From Collinsella tanakaei (GTDB taxonomy: Bacteria; Actinomycetota; Coriobacteriia; Coriobacteriales; Coriobacteriaceae): 64,000 nucleotides of DNA. The first letter of the stretch is position 1; each line of letters opens with the position of its first letter. Positions 2,023 to 36,900 of the stretch are shown one piece after another. Location of the stretch: positions 1 through 64,000 of the forward strand of contig NZ_JACJKB010000002.1 of NCBI RefSeq assembly GCF_016900375.1, in the 5' to 3' direction. The notes under the pieces were generated by a model, which saw only the letters and a program-made list of their open reading frames with translations, ran no database searches and was not told the origin of the DNA. The translations under genes and the position numbers were made by a program.

Positions 2023-5000
2023 CTAGGCGTTGCGGTTGTTGTTCAGGGCATCCTCAAAGTCCTTGAGGTCGTCCGTGAACTTCTTGCGGTGGATGACCGC
2101 GCCCACGAAGTAGATGGCGCTGGCAACCAGACCCACGACCATGACCCAGTGCACCCAGCAGCTGCGATGTTCTGCGTTGGTGAGCGGAGTCTCGTCGTCC
2201 TCGATGGTCTCGCCGCTAGCCAGCGGGGTGTCATCGTCGGCGATGGTCTCCTCCTCGACGGGAGCCGGGGTCTCGTCGGCATCCGGGGTATCACCGTCGC
2301 CCGTGGTGGTCGTTGTGATACCCGTGCCAGGCGTACCGGTGGTACCGGTCGGCGTGGTGCCGCCGGGGGTCGTACCGCCACCCGTGGCGCCGCCGCCCGT
2401 AGTGCCGCCACCGTCGCCCGGGGTCACCGGGGTCGGAGTCGGGGTGGGCGTGGGAGTCGGGGTGTCGGGAGTGTCCGGGGTATCCGGCGTGTCGGGGGTA
2501 TCCGGCGTGTCCGGAGTGTCGGGTTCGTCGGTGCTGGGGTTGTCAGGCTCGTCCGTAGGATCGTCCGGGTCGGTCGGCGGGTTACTGGGATCGTCATCCT
2601 CCTCGCCGCCGCCGGGGATTTCGGGATCCTTCTCGTCGTCATCGTCGTCGGTGTTCCCACCGCCGCCACCGCCGGGGTTGTTGAGCGTCCAAGTGCCCTC
2701 GAACACAACGTCGTTTGCCGGCATCTTGAAGGAGCCCTCGGCAACAATGGCATCATCCGTCGACCAGCCGCTGAAGGTGTAGCCCGGTGCCGTCGCGGCG
2801 GCGGCCACATCCACATCGGCGCCGTACTTGTAGGTCGTCTCGGTGGGCAGACCGCTTGCGCCCGCGGGGGCCTCGCCGTAGTCGTAGGTCACCTTGTAGG
2901 AGTTGCGCTCGTAGTAGACCTTGAGGACGAGCCCGCCGTCGCCGGTGATGGTGCCCTCGAGGACGTTGCCCCCGTTGTCGGAATCGAAGGTGAAGCCATC
3001 GTAGGACACGGAGGTGTCGGCATTGACGGTCTCGCCCGTGGTGCCCTCGGTCTCGGCGTCCGTGTAGGTGGCCTTCTCGGGGTAGGTCCCGTCGAGGTTC
3101 TGCAGGTAGCGCTCGACCGTGTACTTAGTATCCGTGTTGGCGGTCCAGGTTCCCGTGATCGTAACGGCCTTCGCCGGCATCTGGAAGGAGCCCTCGGAGA
3201 CGGAGGCGTCCTTCGTCGACCAGCCGCTGAAGGTGTAGCCGGGTGCCTTCGCGTCGGCGGCCACGGTCACGGTCTCGCCGTACTTGTGCGTGCCATCTGC
3301 GGGCAGCTCGCTTGCGCCCGCGGGGGCCTCGCCGTAGTCGTAGGTCACCTTGTAGGAGTTGCGCTCGTAGTAGACCTTGAGGACGACTTCGTTGTCAGCA
3401 GTGATGGTCTTCTCGAGAACATTGTTCGCGTTATCTCCATCGAAGGTGAATCCCTCGAAGGACACAGAGGTATCGGCTGTAGCGATCTTACCAGCTACGC
3501 CCTTTCTACCGTCCTTATGCGAAGCATCCACAGGATAGCTGCCGTCGAGGTTCTGGAGATAGTACTCGACCTCGTACCACGCCCACACCTCTTCGTAATA
3601 AGCGTAGTAATCCCTGTCCTCCACTATCTGCTCATCGGAGAATTGCGCCAGCTGCGCGCACTCCTCATCTGTGTACCAACCGCAAAGCGTATAGACAGTC
3701 CCGTTGGCTTCAATCGTTTTTGGAAGCGCCTCTTCCTCAGGCTTAATCTCTTCTGGCCTAGTAAGTTCATTTTCCAAAGAGCCGCTCTCAACTCGGACAG
3801 AATAGTCAGGCTGAATCTCAAAATCATCAGCCTCGGGCATCCTGACTCGCCAAGTAACGTTGCAATAGTCCGTATCGTTCAGGAAAATCTGCCCATCGTA
3901 ATGGAAGGTCGGTGTGCCGTTCGGGATAACAGGATTGTAATTGTTGTTGCCGGCATTGGCCCCATCTGCCGCAACCAGACGGAACCACTCTATCGTGTAA
4001 TAACCCTTCTTGTTTTCATTCTCCGAACCAGGCTCGGCATGTTTATAAGTTTCCCCGTCAACAGTAATGTCAGGATAGCCGTTCGGGAAGGTTACGCTAA
4101 CGTCCTCTCCACTGAGATTGACACTGTTTACCTCATAAAATCCCGGCTCCCTGAGGCCCTCTACCGATCCAACGCCCATGCCGTTCCAAATCTGATTGGG
4201 AGCGGCTCCGCTGTTAATATCAGCACCAGGAATTAGCGTATAGAAATAGACGGGGTAGACACCATCAATCGGCTCCCATGAACCGACGAACTTCACGTCA
4301 TCAGCAGGCATTTCAAAGGTGGTGTCTGAGACAGTAGTGTCTTCAGTCTTCCAACCGCTGAAGGTGTAGGCGGGGGCTGTCGCGGCGGCGGCCACGGTCA
4401 CGATCTCGCCGTACTTGTATGTACCGCTATCAGGCAACGCACTTGCGCCCGCGGGGGCCTCGCCGTAGTCGTAGGTCACCTTGTAGGAGTTGCGCTCGTA
4501 GTAGACCTCGAGGACAAGCTCGCCGTCGCCGGTGATGGTGCCCTCGAGGACGTTTTTCTCGTTATCCTTATCGAAGGTAAAGCCCTCGTAGGACACGGAG
4601 GTGTCGGCCTTGGCGGTCTCGCCCGTGGTGCCCTTGGTCTCGGCGTCCGTGTAGGCGGCCTTCTCGGGATAGGACCCGTCGAGGTTCTGCAGGTAGCGCT
4701 CGACCGTGTACTTGGTGTCCTTCTTGGCAGTCCACTTTCCCGTGATCTTGACGGTGTCCGCCGGCATCTGGAACGAGCCCTCGGAGACGGAGGCGTCCTC
4801 CGTCGACCAGCCGCTGAAGGTGTAGCCCTCGAGGATCGGATCGCCAGCCACGGTCACGGTCTCGCCGTATTTGCGCTCAGCCGTGGCCGGCACCGAGGGA
4901 GCGCCTTTGGGCACGTCCCCCTCGTAGCTGTAGCTCACTTCGTAGGAGTTGCGCTCGTAGAAAATATCAACAACGCTATCTCCTCCAGCTTTAATAATCA

Positions 5001-18407: not shown

Positions 18408-18513
18408 CCCGCCCCCGGCCGCCCCTGGCGCCATTGGGGACGTAGCCGGCGGAGGCCAAAATTGGCCTCCGCCGGCTACGTCCCCAATGGCGCCAGGGGC
18501 GGCCGGGGGCGGG
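18408..18513. repeat. Perfect 52-bp-arm inverted repeat, CTACGTCCCCA family
   Basis: Arms 18408-18459 and 18462-18513 are exact reverse complements with only two bases between. The core TTGGGGACGTAGCC is shared with the element at 16345-16420 and those near 28.5, 43.3 and 51.6 kb. It ends 10 bp before the Nudix gene stop and starts 33 bp upstream of the ABC exporter start. Confidence 0.9.
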
Positions 18514-19336: not shown

Positions 19337-22300
19337 CTATCTTGTCGCGCGGAGGGCGATCGCGCCGGCGGCGGCTAGGGCGATGCCGGTCGCGGCGAGG
19401 GCCGCGGCGACTGCGAGGGCGTCTCCCGTTTGGGGGATGCGGTCGGCGGCCGCTGATCCCTGCTGGGAGCTTCCGCTTGGCGCTTGCGGCTGGTTGGGGA
19501 CGGACGGGACGTTGGGGGTGCCCGGGTTGATTGGGTTGTCCGGGCTATCCGGATCGCTCGGCTCCCCGCCTTCGCCCGGCTTGTCCGGGCCATCCGGATT
19601 GCCGGGGTCTTCCGGCCCACCGGGTTCGCCGGGCTCCTCCCCGCCGCCGGGCTCGTCGGGAGCATCCGCCGCGGCATTCGCGAACGGCACGGCCGCCGGA
19701 CCGGGGTCACTCGTACGATCCGAGGTCACCGTCGTCGTGACCGAGTATCCCGCGCCATCGCTCACCGTCGTGTCCACGGCAAGCACGCCGTCGCCGGCGT
19801 CGCGCACGGAAATCTGCACGTCAAAGACCGTGTTGTCGTACACCACGCCGTCGTAGCGCCAGCGAGCGCCGGCATCCGTATCGACCAGCTCCGCACCCGC
19901 AAGCGGCGCGCCGCCGAACGTGCCGTCAACCGTGGGCTGCACCTCGAACACCCGGTAGCAGAACACCCGGCCGATATCCTCCTGCGTGAAGACCGGCGAG
20001 GCGCCCTCGGGCAGCAGACTCACCGCGGCGGACGACCCCTCGGGCGAGGCTGGCGTCTCAGCGGTAAAGCCGCCCACGGCATCGACACCCAACCGCGCAG
20101 CAGCCTGCGCCGCCGTGACCCCGCCCTCGACATCCGAGCCATCGACCGGCAGGATCCGGAATTGGAACGCCCCAGCCTCGATGGCGCCTCCGTCGAGGGT
20201 CTTCACCGCCTGAAGACCCGCCTGCGCAGCGAAGTCGACATCGCCCGTCGTGTACACGTTGGTGAACGCCGCGCGCTGCGCCTCGACGCGATCGGCATCG
20301 GTCGTGGCGGCGCTGTTGTCGTACGCGATGCCCGCGTCACCCGTTGCGACGTCGCCGACCACCAGGTTGCCCGCCCCGTCGTCGCGCACGGTGATCGTCA
20401 CGAGGCTCGCGTGGCCGTCGTACGTCATGCCGTTGTCCTGCGGACCCTCCAGCTCCGTCACGCGGTACACGTAGGTCCCCGGTGCAGTGAAGGCAAGCGC
20501 ATCGAAGGCGCCGTACGTGACCTGCCCCGCCTCAGGAACACCGAGCACCAGCGGCCCCGCCTGCGGCGCGTCCACGCCGTCCGGCGCGCTTACGGGCTCG
20601 AGCTCGAACGTGTAGGCCTCGCCCTCCCGCCACGCGCGGCCGAGCAGCGTTTTCTGCACCTGCACCTGGGTGCCGCTCTCGCCCGCAACGGCGGTATAGG
20701 TGTTGGTGAACTCGGCGCGCGTGTCGCTGGCGCCGATCGTGCCGCTCGCCGTACGGTCGGCAACGCTTCCGGCCGCCACGCCGTCGACCTCGATATCCGT
20801 GAGCGCGAAGCCCGCGCCGTCCGGGGTCGTCTCCGCCGCGCGCCAAGCGCTGCCCGATACGACACCGGGCACGGTGATCGCCTCGCCGCCGCGCAGGGCG
20901 ATCGGCACCAGCGCGCCATCCTCGCCCACCAGCTGGGCCGCGCCCGTGGCGTCGAACGAAAGCTGCACCGTGCGACCGCCGTCGGGCCCTGTCAGCTCCG
21001 CCTCCACCGTCTTGCCGGCGAGCGCCGGAACCTCGAGTGAAAACTCGAAGGCGCGGTCGGCAGGGGTCGACATGACACTGGACCCCGTCCTAACTGTCAC
21101 GTTTTTGGCGATGGTGAGACTTTGGACGCGCTTGTCGGCCACGCGGACCACCACGGTTCCGGAGTAGATGCCCGCGAGGTCGGTCGTGCCCAGGTCCTTC
21201 TTCAGCGACGGGTCGGCACCGTTCGGCGCGTCGAGCCATTGGTTGATAACGAGCTTCGACCAACCCGTATCGGTTTCGAGCGCGCTCACGCCGCCCGGCT
21301 GAGCCGGCGCGTAGTCGAACACCGCGCCGGGCAGCGGATCGTCAGGGTCGCTGTACTCCAGGTACATGGCGCCCGAGCGATGCCCCGCGTCGGCCGCATC
21401 CCACTGCGGCGTGCTCCACGATGTCGCCGCGCCCTCATACGAGGGCGCGGTCACGAGCGCCGCCTTGATGTCGTGCAGGGTCGTGTCGACGTCGTCGTCC
21501 ACCGTGAACTGCTGCATGCTGCCCACGACGCGCCCCACGCCGCGCGCCACCGTGACGCCATCGCCCGCGGTGCCCGCGTCGGCATAGACGCCCGTGCTGT
21601 CGATCACGACCGCGACCGCCGCGGGATTCACGGCAAAACCTTCCGGCGCAGCGGTTTCCACCAGGTAATACGAGCCCTCCTCCAAGGGGCAGCGCAGGCC
21701 GCGCGAGTACGCCGTGGCGCCCGAGAGCGTATAGGAACCGCCGGTTCCGCTCACCAGCGTGAGTTCGCCCGTGGCCCCCGTGGCCACGGGCGTCGCACCC
21801 GCCACGGGATGCAGCGAGCCATCCGCACCTGCCTCCATGTCGGCCGCGCGGAACAGCGAGAACTCGGCGCCCGCCACGGGCTGACCGGCCTCGTCGGCCT
21901 TCTGGACGATCATGCGGTTCTCGATGTTCGTCACGTACAGGCGCGTGGCGAACTGCCGCTCCATGTCGGAGGCGGTCTCGCTGCGCACCTGCACGCTGTT
22001 CGCGGCGGTCGCCTCGCCCAGACGGTCGGCCGAGGTGTAGAAGAACGCCACCGCATACTGCGGCGTTCCGGGCAGACCCGGGTTGTTCCGCATCACCCAC
22101 AAGTAGGTCTTGATGTCGCCCGGCATGTTTTCGACCTCCGCCTCGTAGAGCCCGTTGGCGTTCAGCGAGAACAGCTCGACATCGCCGCGCGCCGCCGCTT
22201 CGGCAGCGCCTTCCAAGCCCGAGGCGTCCAGCACCGACCAGCCCGAAAGCGCATCGCCCACGACGGGATGCCACGAGCCGTCGGCCTCGCGGTGCATGAC

Positions 22301-27037: not shown

Positions 27038-28324
27038 CTACTTCCAATACCTGTTGATGGTCTGCTCGCGGTCGGGACCGACGGACACGAAGGTCACGCG
27101 GACGTGCGCGAGCTTCTCGATGTAGGCGACGTAGTCCTGCGCGGCCTGGGGAAGCTCGTCGAAGCTGCGGCATGCGGAGATGTCGCACTTCCAGCCGGGC
27201 AGCTCCTCGTAGACGGGCTTGGCGGCGGCGAACACGCTCTCGTGCTCGGGCACGGTGGTGTAGCGCACGCCGTCGCACTCGTAGGCGACGCAGACCTTGA
27301 TGGTGTCGAAGGCCGAGAGCACGTCGAGCTTGGTGAGCGCGATGTCGGTCAGGCCGTTCACGCGGGCGGCGTAGTTGGCGATCACGCCGTCGAACCAGCC
27401 GCAGCGGCGGCGGCGACCGGTGGTGACGCCGTACTCGTAGCCGTCCTCCGTGAGGGTGTGGCCCTCGGGCGTCTCGTACGCGAGCTCGGTGGGCATGGGG
27501 CCCTCGCCCACGCGGGTGATGTAGGCCTTCATGATGCCGAGCACGCGGTCGATGTTCTTCATGCCCACGCCGGAGCCCGTAACGGAGCCGCCGGCGGTGC
27601 AGTTGGACGAGGTCACATACGGATACGTGCCATGGTCGATGTCGAGCAGGGTCGCCTGGGCGCCCTCGAACAGGATGGACTTGCCGTCCTCGACCATCTC
27701 GTTGAGCAAAAGACCGCTCTCGCAGATGTAGGGACGCAGGCGCTCGGCCATGGGCAGGTAGTCGGCGCAGATCTGGTCGACCGTGTAGGTGGGCATGCCG
27801 AAGATCTTTTCGAGCTGCGGATTCACGCGGTCGAGCGCGCGTCCGAGCTTCTCGCGGAAGACGGATTCGTCGAGCATGTCCTGCATGCGCAGACCGATGC
27901 GAGCCATCTTGTCTTGGTAGCACGGGCCGATGCCGCGCTTGGTGGTGCCGATGTTGTGGTCGCCCAGCAGCTGCTCGTAGGCGCCGTCGAGGTCCATGTG
28001 GTACGGCATGATGATGTGCGCGTTGCCCGAGACCTTCAGGTTGGCGGTCGAGATGCCGTCGTGCTCGAACATGTCGATTTCCTCGAGCAGCACCTTGGGG
28101 TTCACCACGCAGCCATTGCCGATCACCGACACGCAGTCGGGATACATGATGCCCGAGGGCACCTGGTGCAGGCCGTACTTGCGGTCGCCCACGACGATGG
28201 TATGGCCGGCGTTATTGCCGCCCTGATAACGGACGACGCAGTCGAAATCCCCGGCGATCAGGTCGCAGATCTTGCCCTTACCCTCATCGCCCCACTGGGT
28301 TCCGACCAACACTGTCGACGGCAT
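27038..28324 (-). CDS. purA: Adenylosuccinate synthetase
   Basis: The product has 428 residues. It joins IMP and aspartate with GTP to give adenylosuccinate, the first step of AMP synthesis. Motifs are GTQWGDEGKGK near the start (P-loop), GGNNAGHT, KRGIGPCYQDK, and the GRRRRCGWFDGV segment. The start has AAGGAG inside a perfect CCTTACGTAAGG palindrome, which could fold over the ribosome site. A TATAAT -10 box lies 50-55 bp upstream. Confidence 0.97.
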   Translation of the reverse strand: MPSTVLVGTQWGDEGKGKICDLIAGDFDCVVRYQGGNNAGHTIVVGDRKYGLHQVPSGIMYPDCVSVIGNGCVVNPKVLLEEIDMFEHDGISTANLKVSGNAHIIMPYHMDLDGAYEQLLGDHNIGTTKRGIGPCYQDKMARIGLRMQDMLDESVFREKLGRALDRVNPQLEKIFGMPTYTVDQICADYLPMAERLRPYICESGLLLNEMVEDGKSILFEGAQATLLDIDHGTYPYVTSSNCTAGGSVTGSGVGMKNIDRVLGIMKAYITRVGEGPMPTELAYETPEGHTLTEDGYEYGVTTGRRRRCGWFDGVIANYAARVNGLTDIALTKLDVLSAFDTIKVCVAYECDGVRYTTVPEHESVFAAAKPVYEELPGWKCDISACRSFDELPQAAQDYVAYIEKLAHVRVTFVSVGPDREQTINRYWK

Positions 28325-28331
28325 GTTATCT

Positions 28332-28379
28332 CCTTACGTAAGGCACGTAGCCAAATGACGGTCAAACATCAATATTATA
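28332..28379 (-). promoter_or_regulatory. purA promoter and palindromic ribosome site
   Basis: A perfect -10 box TATAAT reads leftward at 28374-28379. A 12-bp palindrome CCTTACGTAAGG at 28332-28343 includes the A/G-rich part of the purA ribosome site. No convincing -35 box is seen. Confidence 0.55.
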
Positions 28380-28402
28380 CGGCCAAGTAGAGTTCGCCGG
28401 GT

Positions 28403-28443
28403 GTCCACTTTCAGGACGGAGATGTTTTCGGACATCCGCGCGG
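28403..28443. repeat. 41-nt dispersed repeat, copy 1
   Basis: It starts GTCCACTTTCAGGACGGAG and ends TCGGACATCCGCGCGG. The same 41 bases occur without a mismatch, on the opposite strand, at 51371-51411. Its right end runs into the giant palindrome. Confidence 0.9.
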
Positions 28444-28617
28444 CCCGCTGGCCTCTCTGGGGACGTAGCCGGAAGGCGCCAGGGCGTGAAATCGGGACAG
28501 GGGTTATTTCACATGGCGTGCGGCGTAATCGCCGCCCCATGTGAAATAACCCCTGTCCCGATTTCACGCCCTGGCGCCTTCCGGCTACGTCCCCAGAGAG
28601 GCCAGCGGGCCGCGCGG
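28436..28617. repeat. Giant near-perfect palindrome with 81-bp arms
   Basis: Arms 28436-28516 and 28537-28617 are exact reverse complements. The 20-nt centre itself has a 6-bp stem with a TAAT loop. From outside in, the arms carry GGGGACGTAGCC (CTACGTCCCC family), a CGCCAGGGCGTG segment and a GGGACAGGGGTTATTTCACA segment. It fills the space between the dnaB stop (28622) and the purA leader. Confidence 0.93.
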
Positions 28618-28621
28618 GCTT

Positions 28622-30019
28622 TTATTCCTCTGCGTGCTCGTTGAGCTCGTAGAACTTCGTCGATGCAGGCAGGAAGACGAGGTCGACGTCGCCGATGGGG
28701 CCCGAACGGTTCTTGGCCACGATGACGCGCGTGATGCCCTCGGGCGGGCGGTCGTCGCGGCCGGCCTCCTGCTCGGAGCTCGAGCGGTCCAGGAACATGA
28801 CGATGTCGGCGTCCTGCTCGATGGAGCCCGATTCGCGCAGGTCGGAGAGCTGCGGGCGCTTGCCGGTGCGCGACTCGACCGCACGCGAGAGCTGCGATAG
28901 CGAGATGACCGGCACGGCGAGCTCCTTGGCCATGATCTTGAGGGCACGACTCATCTCGGAAACCTCGACGGCGCGGTTCTCGGCGCGTCGTCCCGCCGGC
29001 GGGCTCACCAGCTGCAGGTAGTCGAGGATGATGACGGCCTTCTCCTTGTTATGGAGCATGCGGCGCGCCTTGGCGCGGATCTCGGTCACCGTGGTGCCGG
29101 GCGTGTCGTCGATCAGGATGTCGAGACGCGACAGGTCCTGGGTGGCCTCGTTGATGTTGGCCCACTCCTGCGGCGAGATGCGGCCGGTGCGGAAGTTGGA
29201 CATGTTGATCTGGGCATGCGCGCAGATGAAGCGCTGGGCGATTTCCTTGCCCGACATCTCGAGCGAGAAGAACGCGACCGTGTAGCCCTCCGACGCCGCG
29301 TTCAACGCCAGGTTCAGCGCGAACGACGTCTTACCCACGGCCGGGCGGGCGCCGATGATGACGAGCTGGCCCTCGCGCAGGCCCATAAGCATGCGGTCGA
29401 GACTCGGGTAGCCGGTGGGCGCGCCGTGGACCTCGCCGCCAGCCGCGCAGACCTCCTCGGCCTCGTTGTAGGCCTCAATCATGAACTCGGTGAGCGACTT
29501 GTAGGAGCTGCGCACCTCGCGCGCGGTCACGGAGAGCAGCATCGACTCGGCGCGCTCGATGACCTCCTTGGTGTCGGAGGGCGCGTCGTAGGCAAGGGCG
29601 TTGATCTGGTTCGTGGCGCCGATGATCTCGCGCAGCATGGCGTCGCGCCGCACGATGCCGGCGTGGTGCTGCCAGTTGACCAAGCTGAGCGTGCGGCCCA
29701 TGAGGTCAAGGATGTAGGCCTCGCCGCCCACGGCCTCGAGCTTGCTCTGTGAATTGAGGTAGTCGATGAGCGAGATGGAGTCGATCGGCAGGTTGCGGTC
29801 GTACATCTCGTGCATCGCGATGAATAGCGTCTTGTGCGCCGGGCGATAGAAGTCGTCGGGAAGCAGCTCGACGAGCGCCTCCTCCACGACCTCGGCGGAA
29901 AGCAGCATCGCCGCAAGGACGTTGGCCTCGGCCTCGACGTTGTTGGGCAGGCCCATGCGCGCGCCGCGGTCGGTCACGCCCGTGGGGGACCAAGAGTAAT
30001 CCTGTGAGGATGATGGCAT
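28622..30019 (-). CDS. dnaB: Replicative DNA helicase
   Basis: The product has 465 residues from ATG 30019 with AAGGAG upstream. It is the hexameric helicase that unwinds DNA ahead of the replisome. The N-terminal domain starts at GLPNNVEAEANVLAAMLLS. The RecA-like domain has Walker A GARPAVGKTSF at about residue 225, Walker B-type VIILDYLQLV, and the arginine-rich VISLSQLSRAVE and DLRESGSIEQDAD segments. No intein is present. It is downstream of the rpsF-ssb-rpsR-rplI genes, as in many bacteria, but separated from them by a terminator and a 758-bp gap. Confidence 0.97.
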   Translation of the reverse strand: MPSSSQDYSWSPTGVTDRGARMGLPNNVEAEANVLAAMLLSAEVVEEALVELLPDDFYRPAHKTLFIAMHEMYDRNLPIDSISLIDYLNSQSKLEAVGGEAYILDLMGRTLSLVNWQHHAGIVRRDAMLREIIGATNQINALAYDAPSDTKEVIERAESMLLSVTAREVRSSYKSLTEFMIEAYNEAEEVCAAGGEVHGAPTGYPSLDRMLMGLREGQLVIIGARPAVGKTSFALNLALNAASEGYTVAFFSLEMSGKEIAQRFICAHAQINMSNFRTGRISPQEWANINEATQDLSRLDILIDDTPGTTVTEIRAKARRMLHNKEKAVIILDYLQLVSPPAGRRAENRAVEVSEMSRALKIMAKELAVPVISLSQLSRAVESRTGKRPQLSDLRESGSIEQDADIVMFLDRSSSEQEAGRDDRPPEGITRVIVAKNRSGPIGDVDLVFLPASTKFYELNEHAEE

Positions 30020-30544: not shown

Positions 30545-30667
30545 GGCAGGCGGGGGATGCAATTTCGGGGACAGGTCCCAAACTTTCACGGCGGCGGGAC
30601 TTTGCGTCAAAGTCCCGCCGCCGTGAAAGTTTGGGACCTGTCCCCGAAATTGCATCCCCCGCCTGCC
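30545..30667. repeat. Perfect 59-bp-arm inverted repeat, GGGACAGGTCCC family
   Basis: Arms 30545-30603 and 30609-30667 are exact reverse complements around a GCGTC loop. The arms hold GGGGACAGGTCCCAAACTTT followed by CACGGCGGCGGGACTTT. It sits between rplI and dnaB, downstream of the rplI terminator. Confidence 0.93.
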
Positions 30668-36670: not shown

Positions 36671-36833
36671 TGACAGCGGGCCCCGTCCTAGCTGTCATGG
36701 AAATCGAACCTATGGGTTTGTACCGTTTGAGGGCGTCGATACGGTACAAATCCGTAGGCTCGATTGTCGGTGCAATTGGCGACGAGTTGCTCGGAAGACA
36801 GGACCGTGACAGCGGGCCCCGTCCTAACTGTCA
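36671..36833. repeat. Composite repeat: two 27-nt hairpins around a larger hairpin
   Basis: Copies of the TGACAGCGGGCCCCGTCCTA family lie at 36671-36697 and 36807-36833 in the same orientation. Between them is a 23-bp imperfect inverted repeat (36703-36725 with 36742-36764, including TTTGTACCG and CGGTACAAA). The whole sits upstream of lemA. Confidence 0.85.
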
Positions 36834-36900
36834 TGGATTTGCGGGGTGCTGCGGGTATACTTGTGCAAACGAGAAGGGCCCGTCCCGGAATGGAGCTCAT

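Follow-up and report, generated by a model that had tools for sequence, protein, structure and literature searches.

INTRODUCTION

The closest described relatives of the locus reported here are the REPINs and their RAYTs (Bertels and Rainey 2011, PMC3116915). The locus shares with them inverted REP doublets that act as hairpins, an extragenic location, and a high copy number. A tie between REP family and RAYT gene, each such gene having flanking REPs of its own, is also shared, as are frequent compensatory changes on the two sides. The 2011 paper described such changes in REPIN spacers and connected them with the capacity to form hairpins. TIRYT/TIRtron repeats (Di Nocera et al. 2013, PMC3733652) involve IS200-like tyrosine transposases lying between inverted repeats with the motif GGGGWSAS, some of which have multiplied as dimers in the genome. 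BIMEs (bacterial interspersed mosaic elements; PMC2817692) are, like the present elements, composites of REPs in alternating orientation. Two processes bear on the fate of such palindromes: template switching is already known to homogenize the arms of inverted repeats (PMC8604942, PMC8794818), and SbcCD breaks a palindrome in the Escherichia coli chromosome (Eykelenboom et al. 2008, as cited in PMC7999016).

Here, we analyze a palindrome between dnaB and purA in a 64,000-nt stretch of Collinsella tanakaei DNA, referred to below as the window. We consider it roughly 78% probable that this palindrome is a composite of non-autonomous REPINs moved by RAYT-type single-strand transposases, in which an element of one family (A) entered the dnaB-purA spacer and carries an element of a second family (B) in its loop.

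RESULTS

The dnaB-purA spacer contains a layered 182-bp palindrome

A first-pass annotation of the window had described a giant palindrome at 28436-28617, and we found it exactly there, with arms at 28436-28516 and 28537-28617. An inverted-repeat search of the window showed that the arms are 81 nt each, 100% complementary, and separated by 20 nt. The site is the spacer between dnaB and purA (Table 1). The strength of the fold is far above chance: the DNA fold of the palindrome is -137 kcal/mol, where shuffled sequences average -45.6 kcal/mol (z = -26), and the RNA fold of the dnaB strand is -217.8 against -98.3 for shuffled sequence (z = -22.6). The 20-nt center can almost pair with itself (GCGGCG-TAAT-CGCCGC), which makes the hairpin a little longer than had been annotated. 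An Rfam search returned only two tRNAs and no known RNA family at the palindrome.

Two repeat families had been seen nested in each other at this site. The nesting was borne out, while the number of families is three: E is outermost, A follows, and B is innermost. The window copy has no E on the dnaB side; thus, nesting within an E doublet is unproven for this copy. By comparison with the palindromic spacers seen in E doublets that lack A, the 13-nt GC-rich spacer is probably the spacer of an E doublet. Because the conserved TATAAT upstream of purA lies outside the element, purA probably has its own promoter and would be independent of read-through from dnaB.

Table 1. Layers of the palindrome and neighboring features, in window coordinates
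Feature	Position	Strand	Remark
purA, downstream gene	27038..28324	-	Found in 45/45 genus genomes
TATAAT, conserved, probable purA promoter	28374..28379	-	Outside the element; TATAAT-like motif upstream of purA in readable orthologous spacers
E-REP (TGTCCACTTTCAGGACGGAGATGTTTTCGGACA), outermost layer, purA side only	28402..28434	+	Intact E-E' doublets at other loci
GC-rich spacer, left half, 13 nt	28436..28448	+	Perfectly palindromic; sequence site-specific
A-REP left (TGGCCTCTCTGGGGACGTAGCCGGAAGGCGCCA)	28449..28481	+	
A-B junction GGGC	28482..28485	+	CCGC in other copies
B-REP left (GTGAAATCGGGACAGGGGTTATTTCAC)	28486..28512	+	
20-nt center, spacer of the B doublet	28517..28536	.	Imperfect hairpin tip
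B-REP right, inverted copy	28541..28567	-	
A-REP right, inverted copy	28572..28604	-	
GC-rich palindromic spacer, right half	28605..28617	-	Ends 4 nt from the dnaB stop codon
dnaB, upstream gene	28622..30019	-	Orthologues found in sister species

The layers belong to dispersed repeat families

The palindrome has 133 matches in its own genome, both strands counted. Side-by-side comparison of the copies showed that A-REPs form inverted pairs whose loops are 4 nt or longer. The loop of the A pair holds a B-REP pair in six assembled copies and a C-REP pair in three (L038, L039, and L040), and an E-REP often lies outside A on one or both sides. The A-B composite is present in at least six fully assembled copies, and a seventh is split over two contig ends. 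We counted 135 A-REPs in the own genome, 5 in the sister species G008, and 0 in the 43 other genus genomes. E-REP has 66 copies in the own genome and none at up to 3 mismatches in the 44 other genus genomes; G008 has a degenerate E next to locus L061. B-REP has 13 copies in the own genome, 12 of which are the six pairs inside A loops, and C-REP has 92 there and 4 in G008. Since the counts are high in the own genome and low or nil in relatives, the families are mostly young expansions of this species.

The extragenic location of the dispersed copies was judged by a crude check only, and many copies lie next to unrelated genes. Doublets of B type and of E also stand alone (C4:71449, C8:48368-48449 with an intact E-E', and C2:96670). 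Thus, each layer is a family in its own right. The junction of the A-B composite is nearly constant from copy to copy, which points to spread of the composite as a unit, probably after B entered A. A scan of a whole genome collection, from which near-own records may be left out, gave no match to the A-B junction.

Could the palindrome have arisen where it stands, by a local inverted duplication through template switching and without any transposition? Template switching can make perfect stems in one event (PMC8794818), and the arms here are perfect. However, the same A-B layers are found at six or more unrelated loci, and A-REPs are present at a RAYT gene. We regard duplication in place as highly improbable.

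The window contains further repeats. A second perfect palindrome at 18408-18513 has 52-nt arms and a 2-nt loop and is based on an A-REP doublet, and a third at 30545-30667, upstream of dnaB, has 60-nt arms and a 3-nt loop and is based on C-REP. Short repeats of the TGACAGCGGGCCCCGTCCTAACTGTCA type at 36671-36701, 36807-36837, and 21073-21103 look like a further REP family. Repeats of 147 to 300 nt at 2689-4878, with two spacings of 456 nt, are probably repeated domains of a large protein.

RAYT genes are flanked by REPs, among them those of the A and C families

The own genome has four IS200-like Y1 transposase (Y1_Tnp/RAYT) genes. All four match the REP-associated tyrosine transposase model, only one of them above the curated cutoff; all four are above the Pfam Y1_Tnp cutoff and keep NHVH (the HVH motif), as expected of Y1/HUH transposases with a catalytic Tyr, and an invariant Tyr. 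The A-family RAYT scores 51 bits, which is below the NCBIfam RAYT cutoff of 80 and above that of Pfam, and a comparison with solved structures gave no match for it.

A-REPs flank the RAYT gene at C1:180328-181173 (L052; hit at C1:180469), and a full A doublet begins directly after its stop codon. C-REPs flank the RAYT gene at C1:228348. The RAYT at C24:87278 is flanked by B-like repeats (GTGAAAT...TTTTTTCAC) that are related, though not identical, to B, and the B-type doublet at C4:71449 is intermediate. The RAYT at C7:14094 is flanked by a fourth repeat, GACAAGATGG..ATCTTGTC. No E-REP was seen within the 400-nt flanks of the four genes. With no RAYT partner found for it in the genome, E was classed as a REP-like repeat and not as a RAYT-linked REPIN. 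By most tested features, the A layer is a RAYT-associated REPIN. The B layer is probably one as well, its link to a RAYT being indirect.

The A-family RAYT lies between an rsfS-like gene and dinB in the own genome (G000) and in the sister species G008 and G059 (L052:2326-3177, with L054, L257, and L258). Across the three species, identities are 54 to 57% for this RAYT, 85 to 86% for dinB, and 68 to 80% for the rsfS-like gene. The REP beside the RAYT differs in each species, around a common core CTC..TGGGGACG. A fast-diverging transposase with a different REP in each species fits rapid co-evolution of RAYT and repeat.

Orthologous sites in sister species lack the element

In G008, the dnaB-purA spacer contains a different palindrome, and the spacers of G018, G016, and G059 contain no such element; in G018 and G016, dnaB is followed by short hairpins and then T-runs. 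Ten other A elements have orthologous spacers (in G059, G008, G018, G016, or G023) without the element, and several of these spacers carry other, species-specific palindromes. These empty sites support insertion of a mobile element into shared intergenic sites, and this pattern of presence and absence between species supports recent mobility. The first-pass annotation had proposed recent formation, which agrees with the element being missing from the orthologous spacer and with the species-specific expansion. It had also raised conservation in relatives, and at this site the element is not conserved in the sister species. Perfect or nested palindromes belonging to sister species themselves occupy orthologous spacers at L198, L207, L209, L210, and L213.

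The same comparison bears on whether the palindrome is kept as a selected RNA device of dnaB, namely, a terminator, a protector of the mRNA 3' end, or an RNase III site. It lies 4 nt past the dnaB stop codon, its RNA is predicted to form a very stable hairpin, and REPs are often located 3' of genes (PMC3733652). However, a search for intrinsic terminators (a G+C-rich stem followed by a U-tract) found none on the minus strand, which is that of dnaB. The palindrome is not kept at the site in sister species, G018 and G016 having the short hairpins with T-runs instead, and many copies elsewhere are beside unrelated genes. We judge such a device to be improbable. The data do not support selection for dnaB function, and the palindrome need not have a selected role. 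The dnaB mRNA may be affected incidentally, and RNA of the palindrome stem could in principle be an RNase III substrate.

The two arms change in concert

Perfect arms were found in 34 of 38 A pairs, though the copies differ from one another. Relative to the consensus, the 38 pairs showed 85 mirrored and 9 one-sided differences, counts of mirrored differences being inflated by relatedness among copies. When right arms were permuted among copies, mismatches between arms averaged 139, versus 9 observed; for the 24 distinct pairs only, the same permutation gave 118 versus 9. Nine of 26 mirrored states occur in a single copy only. Six composites differ from each other at several positions, yet each has identical 68-nt arms.

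The orthologous REPIN at L047 (G000) and L061 (G008) has perfect arms in both species. Between the species, two adjacent bases are changed, in mirror image on the two arms, and the loop measures 42 nt in G000 and 4 nt in G008. This difference suggests change in place; replacement by another copy is possible. L061 was also considered as an orthologue of the RAYT locus L052 and was rejected, its true orthologue being L047. An older orthologous A dimer carries one-sided changes. Thus, arm copying is not universal. Because compensatory changes in REPINs had been reported earlier, we view the concerted arms as a known property seen clearly here and not as a new one.

Selection on the hairpin, for RAYT recognition or at the RNA level, could keep the arms identical with no copying between them, and the link between compensatory spacer changes and hairpin-forming capacity (PMC3116915) points in that direction. 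This explanation competes with the copying step only and leaves the REPIN identity of the element untouched. However, nearly all differences are fully mirrored and few one-sided intermediates are seen, the site-specific GC-rich spacers are perfect too, and the adjacent two-base change is mirrored in both arms of the orthologous pair. Selection on the hairpin alone therefore seems to us a rather unlikely account.

The genus appears to lack SbcCD

No SbcD above the cutoff was found in the 26 genus genomes searched (0/26), and G000 had no match whatever; 13 of 14 control genomes had a match. For SbcC, genus genomes gave short SMC-like matches only, and a clear SbcC was present in 7 of 16 genomes from other genera of the same order. 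By these searches, the genus appears to be without SbcCD. The persistence of the palindrome had been taken to suggest selection. That is not needed, given the apparent lack of SbcCD, the enzyme by which palindromes of this length are normally destroyed, and the existence of many other mobile copies.

In a small comparison, the palindrome densities of G000, G059, G008, and G028 were consistent with a link to SbcCD. G026, with no clear SbcC, had no palindrome with arms of at least 25 nt in 98 kb, and G030, in which SbcC is present, had one palindrome with a 34-nt arm. The rule that genomes without SbcC have long palindromes failed in this comparison. In view of these exceptions, we treat the absence of SbcCD as permissive only and its link to palindromes as an unproven correlation; it may let long palindromes survive.

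The palindrome is not readily explained by misassembly

The draft genome consists of 87 contigs, and contig ends (C76 end and C55 start) interrupt at least one related element, so one arm could be real and the other a product of mis-joining. However, both flanks of the palindrome are the conserved neighbors dnaB and purA. In several other composites, the two flanks are unique sequences that differ from each other, and most were matched to orthologous places in sister species. The empty orthologous sites of these species also speak against a fold-back. In addition, the center is asymmetric, and copies differ from each other by mirrored variants. An assembly fold-back has almost no credence under these observations: as far as sequence allows, it is excluded and very unlikely.

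At the C76 and C55 ends, both arms share unusual variants (GGGGACGCAGCC), and the two ends would belong to one larger palindrome that the assembler could not cross. Other contigs of the own draft genome and of a sister one start or end inside such palindromes (L034 end, L035 start, L214 1-48, and L216 15973-16068). Contig ends of this kind indicate that long REPIN palindromes are probably underassembled.

DISCUSSION

We propose that a REPIN of the A family, the family whose REPs border one of the RAYT genes, inserted into the dnaB-purA spacer. It probably landed within or next to an older E repeat, and it carries a B-family REPIN in its loop. Each layer would sit at the tip of the preceding hairpin, and the layers would thereby sum to one long perfect palindrome. 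B would have entered A first, and the composite was probably dispersed as a unit by RAYT transposition. Template switching, or the making of new copies from a single folded strand, is the most likely way in which a change in one arm would then reach the other. The absence of SbcCD in the genus probably permits the survival of long palindromes.

A broader version of this model is possible, and we offer it tentatively, as less likely than the REPIN reading itself. RAYTs may insert REPINs preferentially at existing hairpin tips, giving a Russian-doll growth, and genus-wide loss of SbcCD may have allowed great length and arm identity by repeated arm-to-arm copying.

As a system, the genus combines RAYTs and several REP families with nested insertions that can be put in order, and SbcCD appears to be missing from it. 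The nesting dates the insertions relative to one another. The RAYT next to dinB in three species makes RAYT-REP co-evolution and REPIN movement directly testable, and the genus also lends itself to a natural test of SbcCD as a limit on the length of palindromes.

In comparison with the REPINs of PMC3116915, two or three families are here stacked inside one another, arms reach 81 nt and probably more than 110 nt in one copy, and the REPs have no terminal GTAG tag. A has GTAG in its interior (GGGGACGTAGCC), and the B, C, and E sequences have none; therefore, we did not file the element under GTAG REPs. The likeness to the TIRYT repeats of PMC3733652 lies in GGGGACAG, which is contained in C-REP and in some B copies (L030). 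The A-REP has GGGGACGT, which does not fit GGGGWSAS, and the B of the window has CGGGACAG. Multi-family nesting is not described in the consulted parts of that paper. Its nearest precedent there is that of REP dimers inside outer palindromes (Anabaena variabilis GTAG-15 and Halothiobacillus neapolitanus CGTC-1), where the outer palindromes are not found without REPs. In contrast, the E and A layers here also occur alone and are thus both independent dispersed families. In a limited search of open papers, we met no account of several REPIN families placed one inside another. BIMEs are side-by-side mosaics, whereas the nesting here is concentric. The locus is therefore of a known kind, that of RAYT-associated REPINs, and what is new is the nesting of several families.
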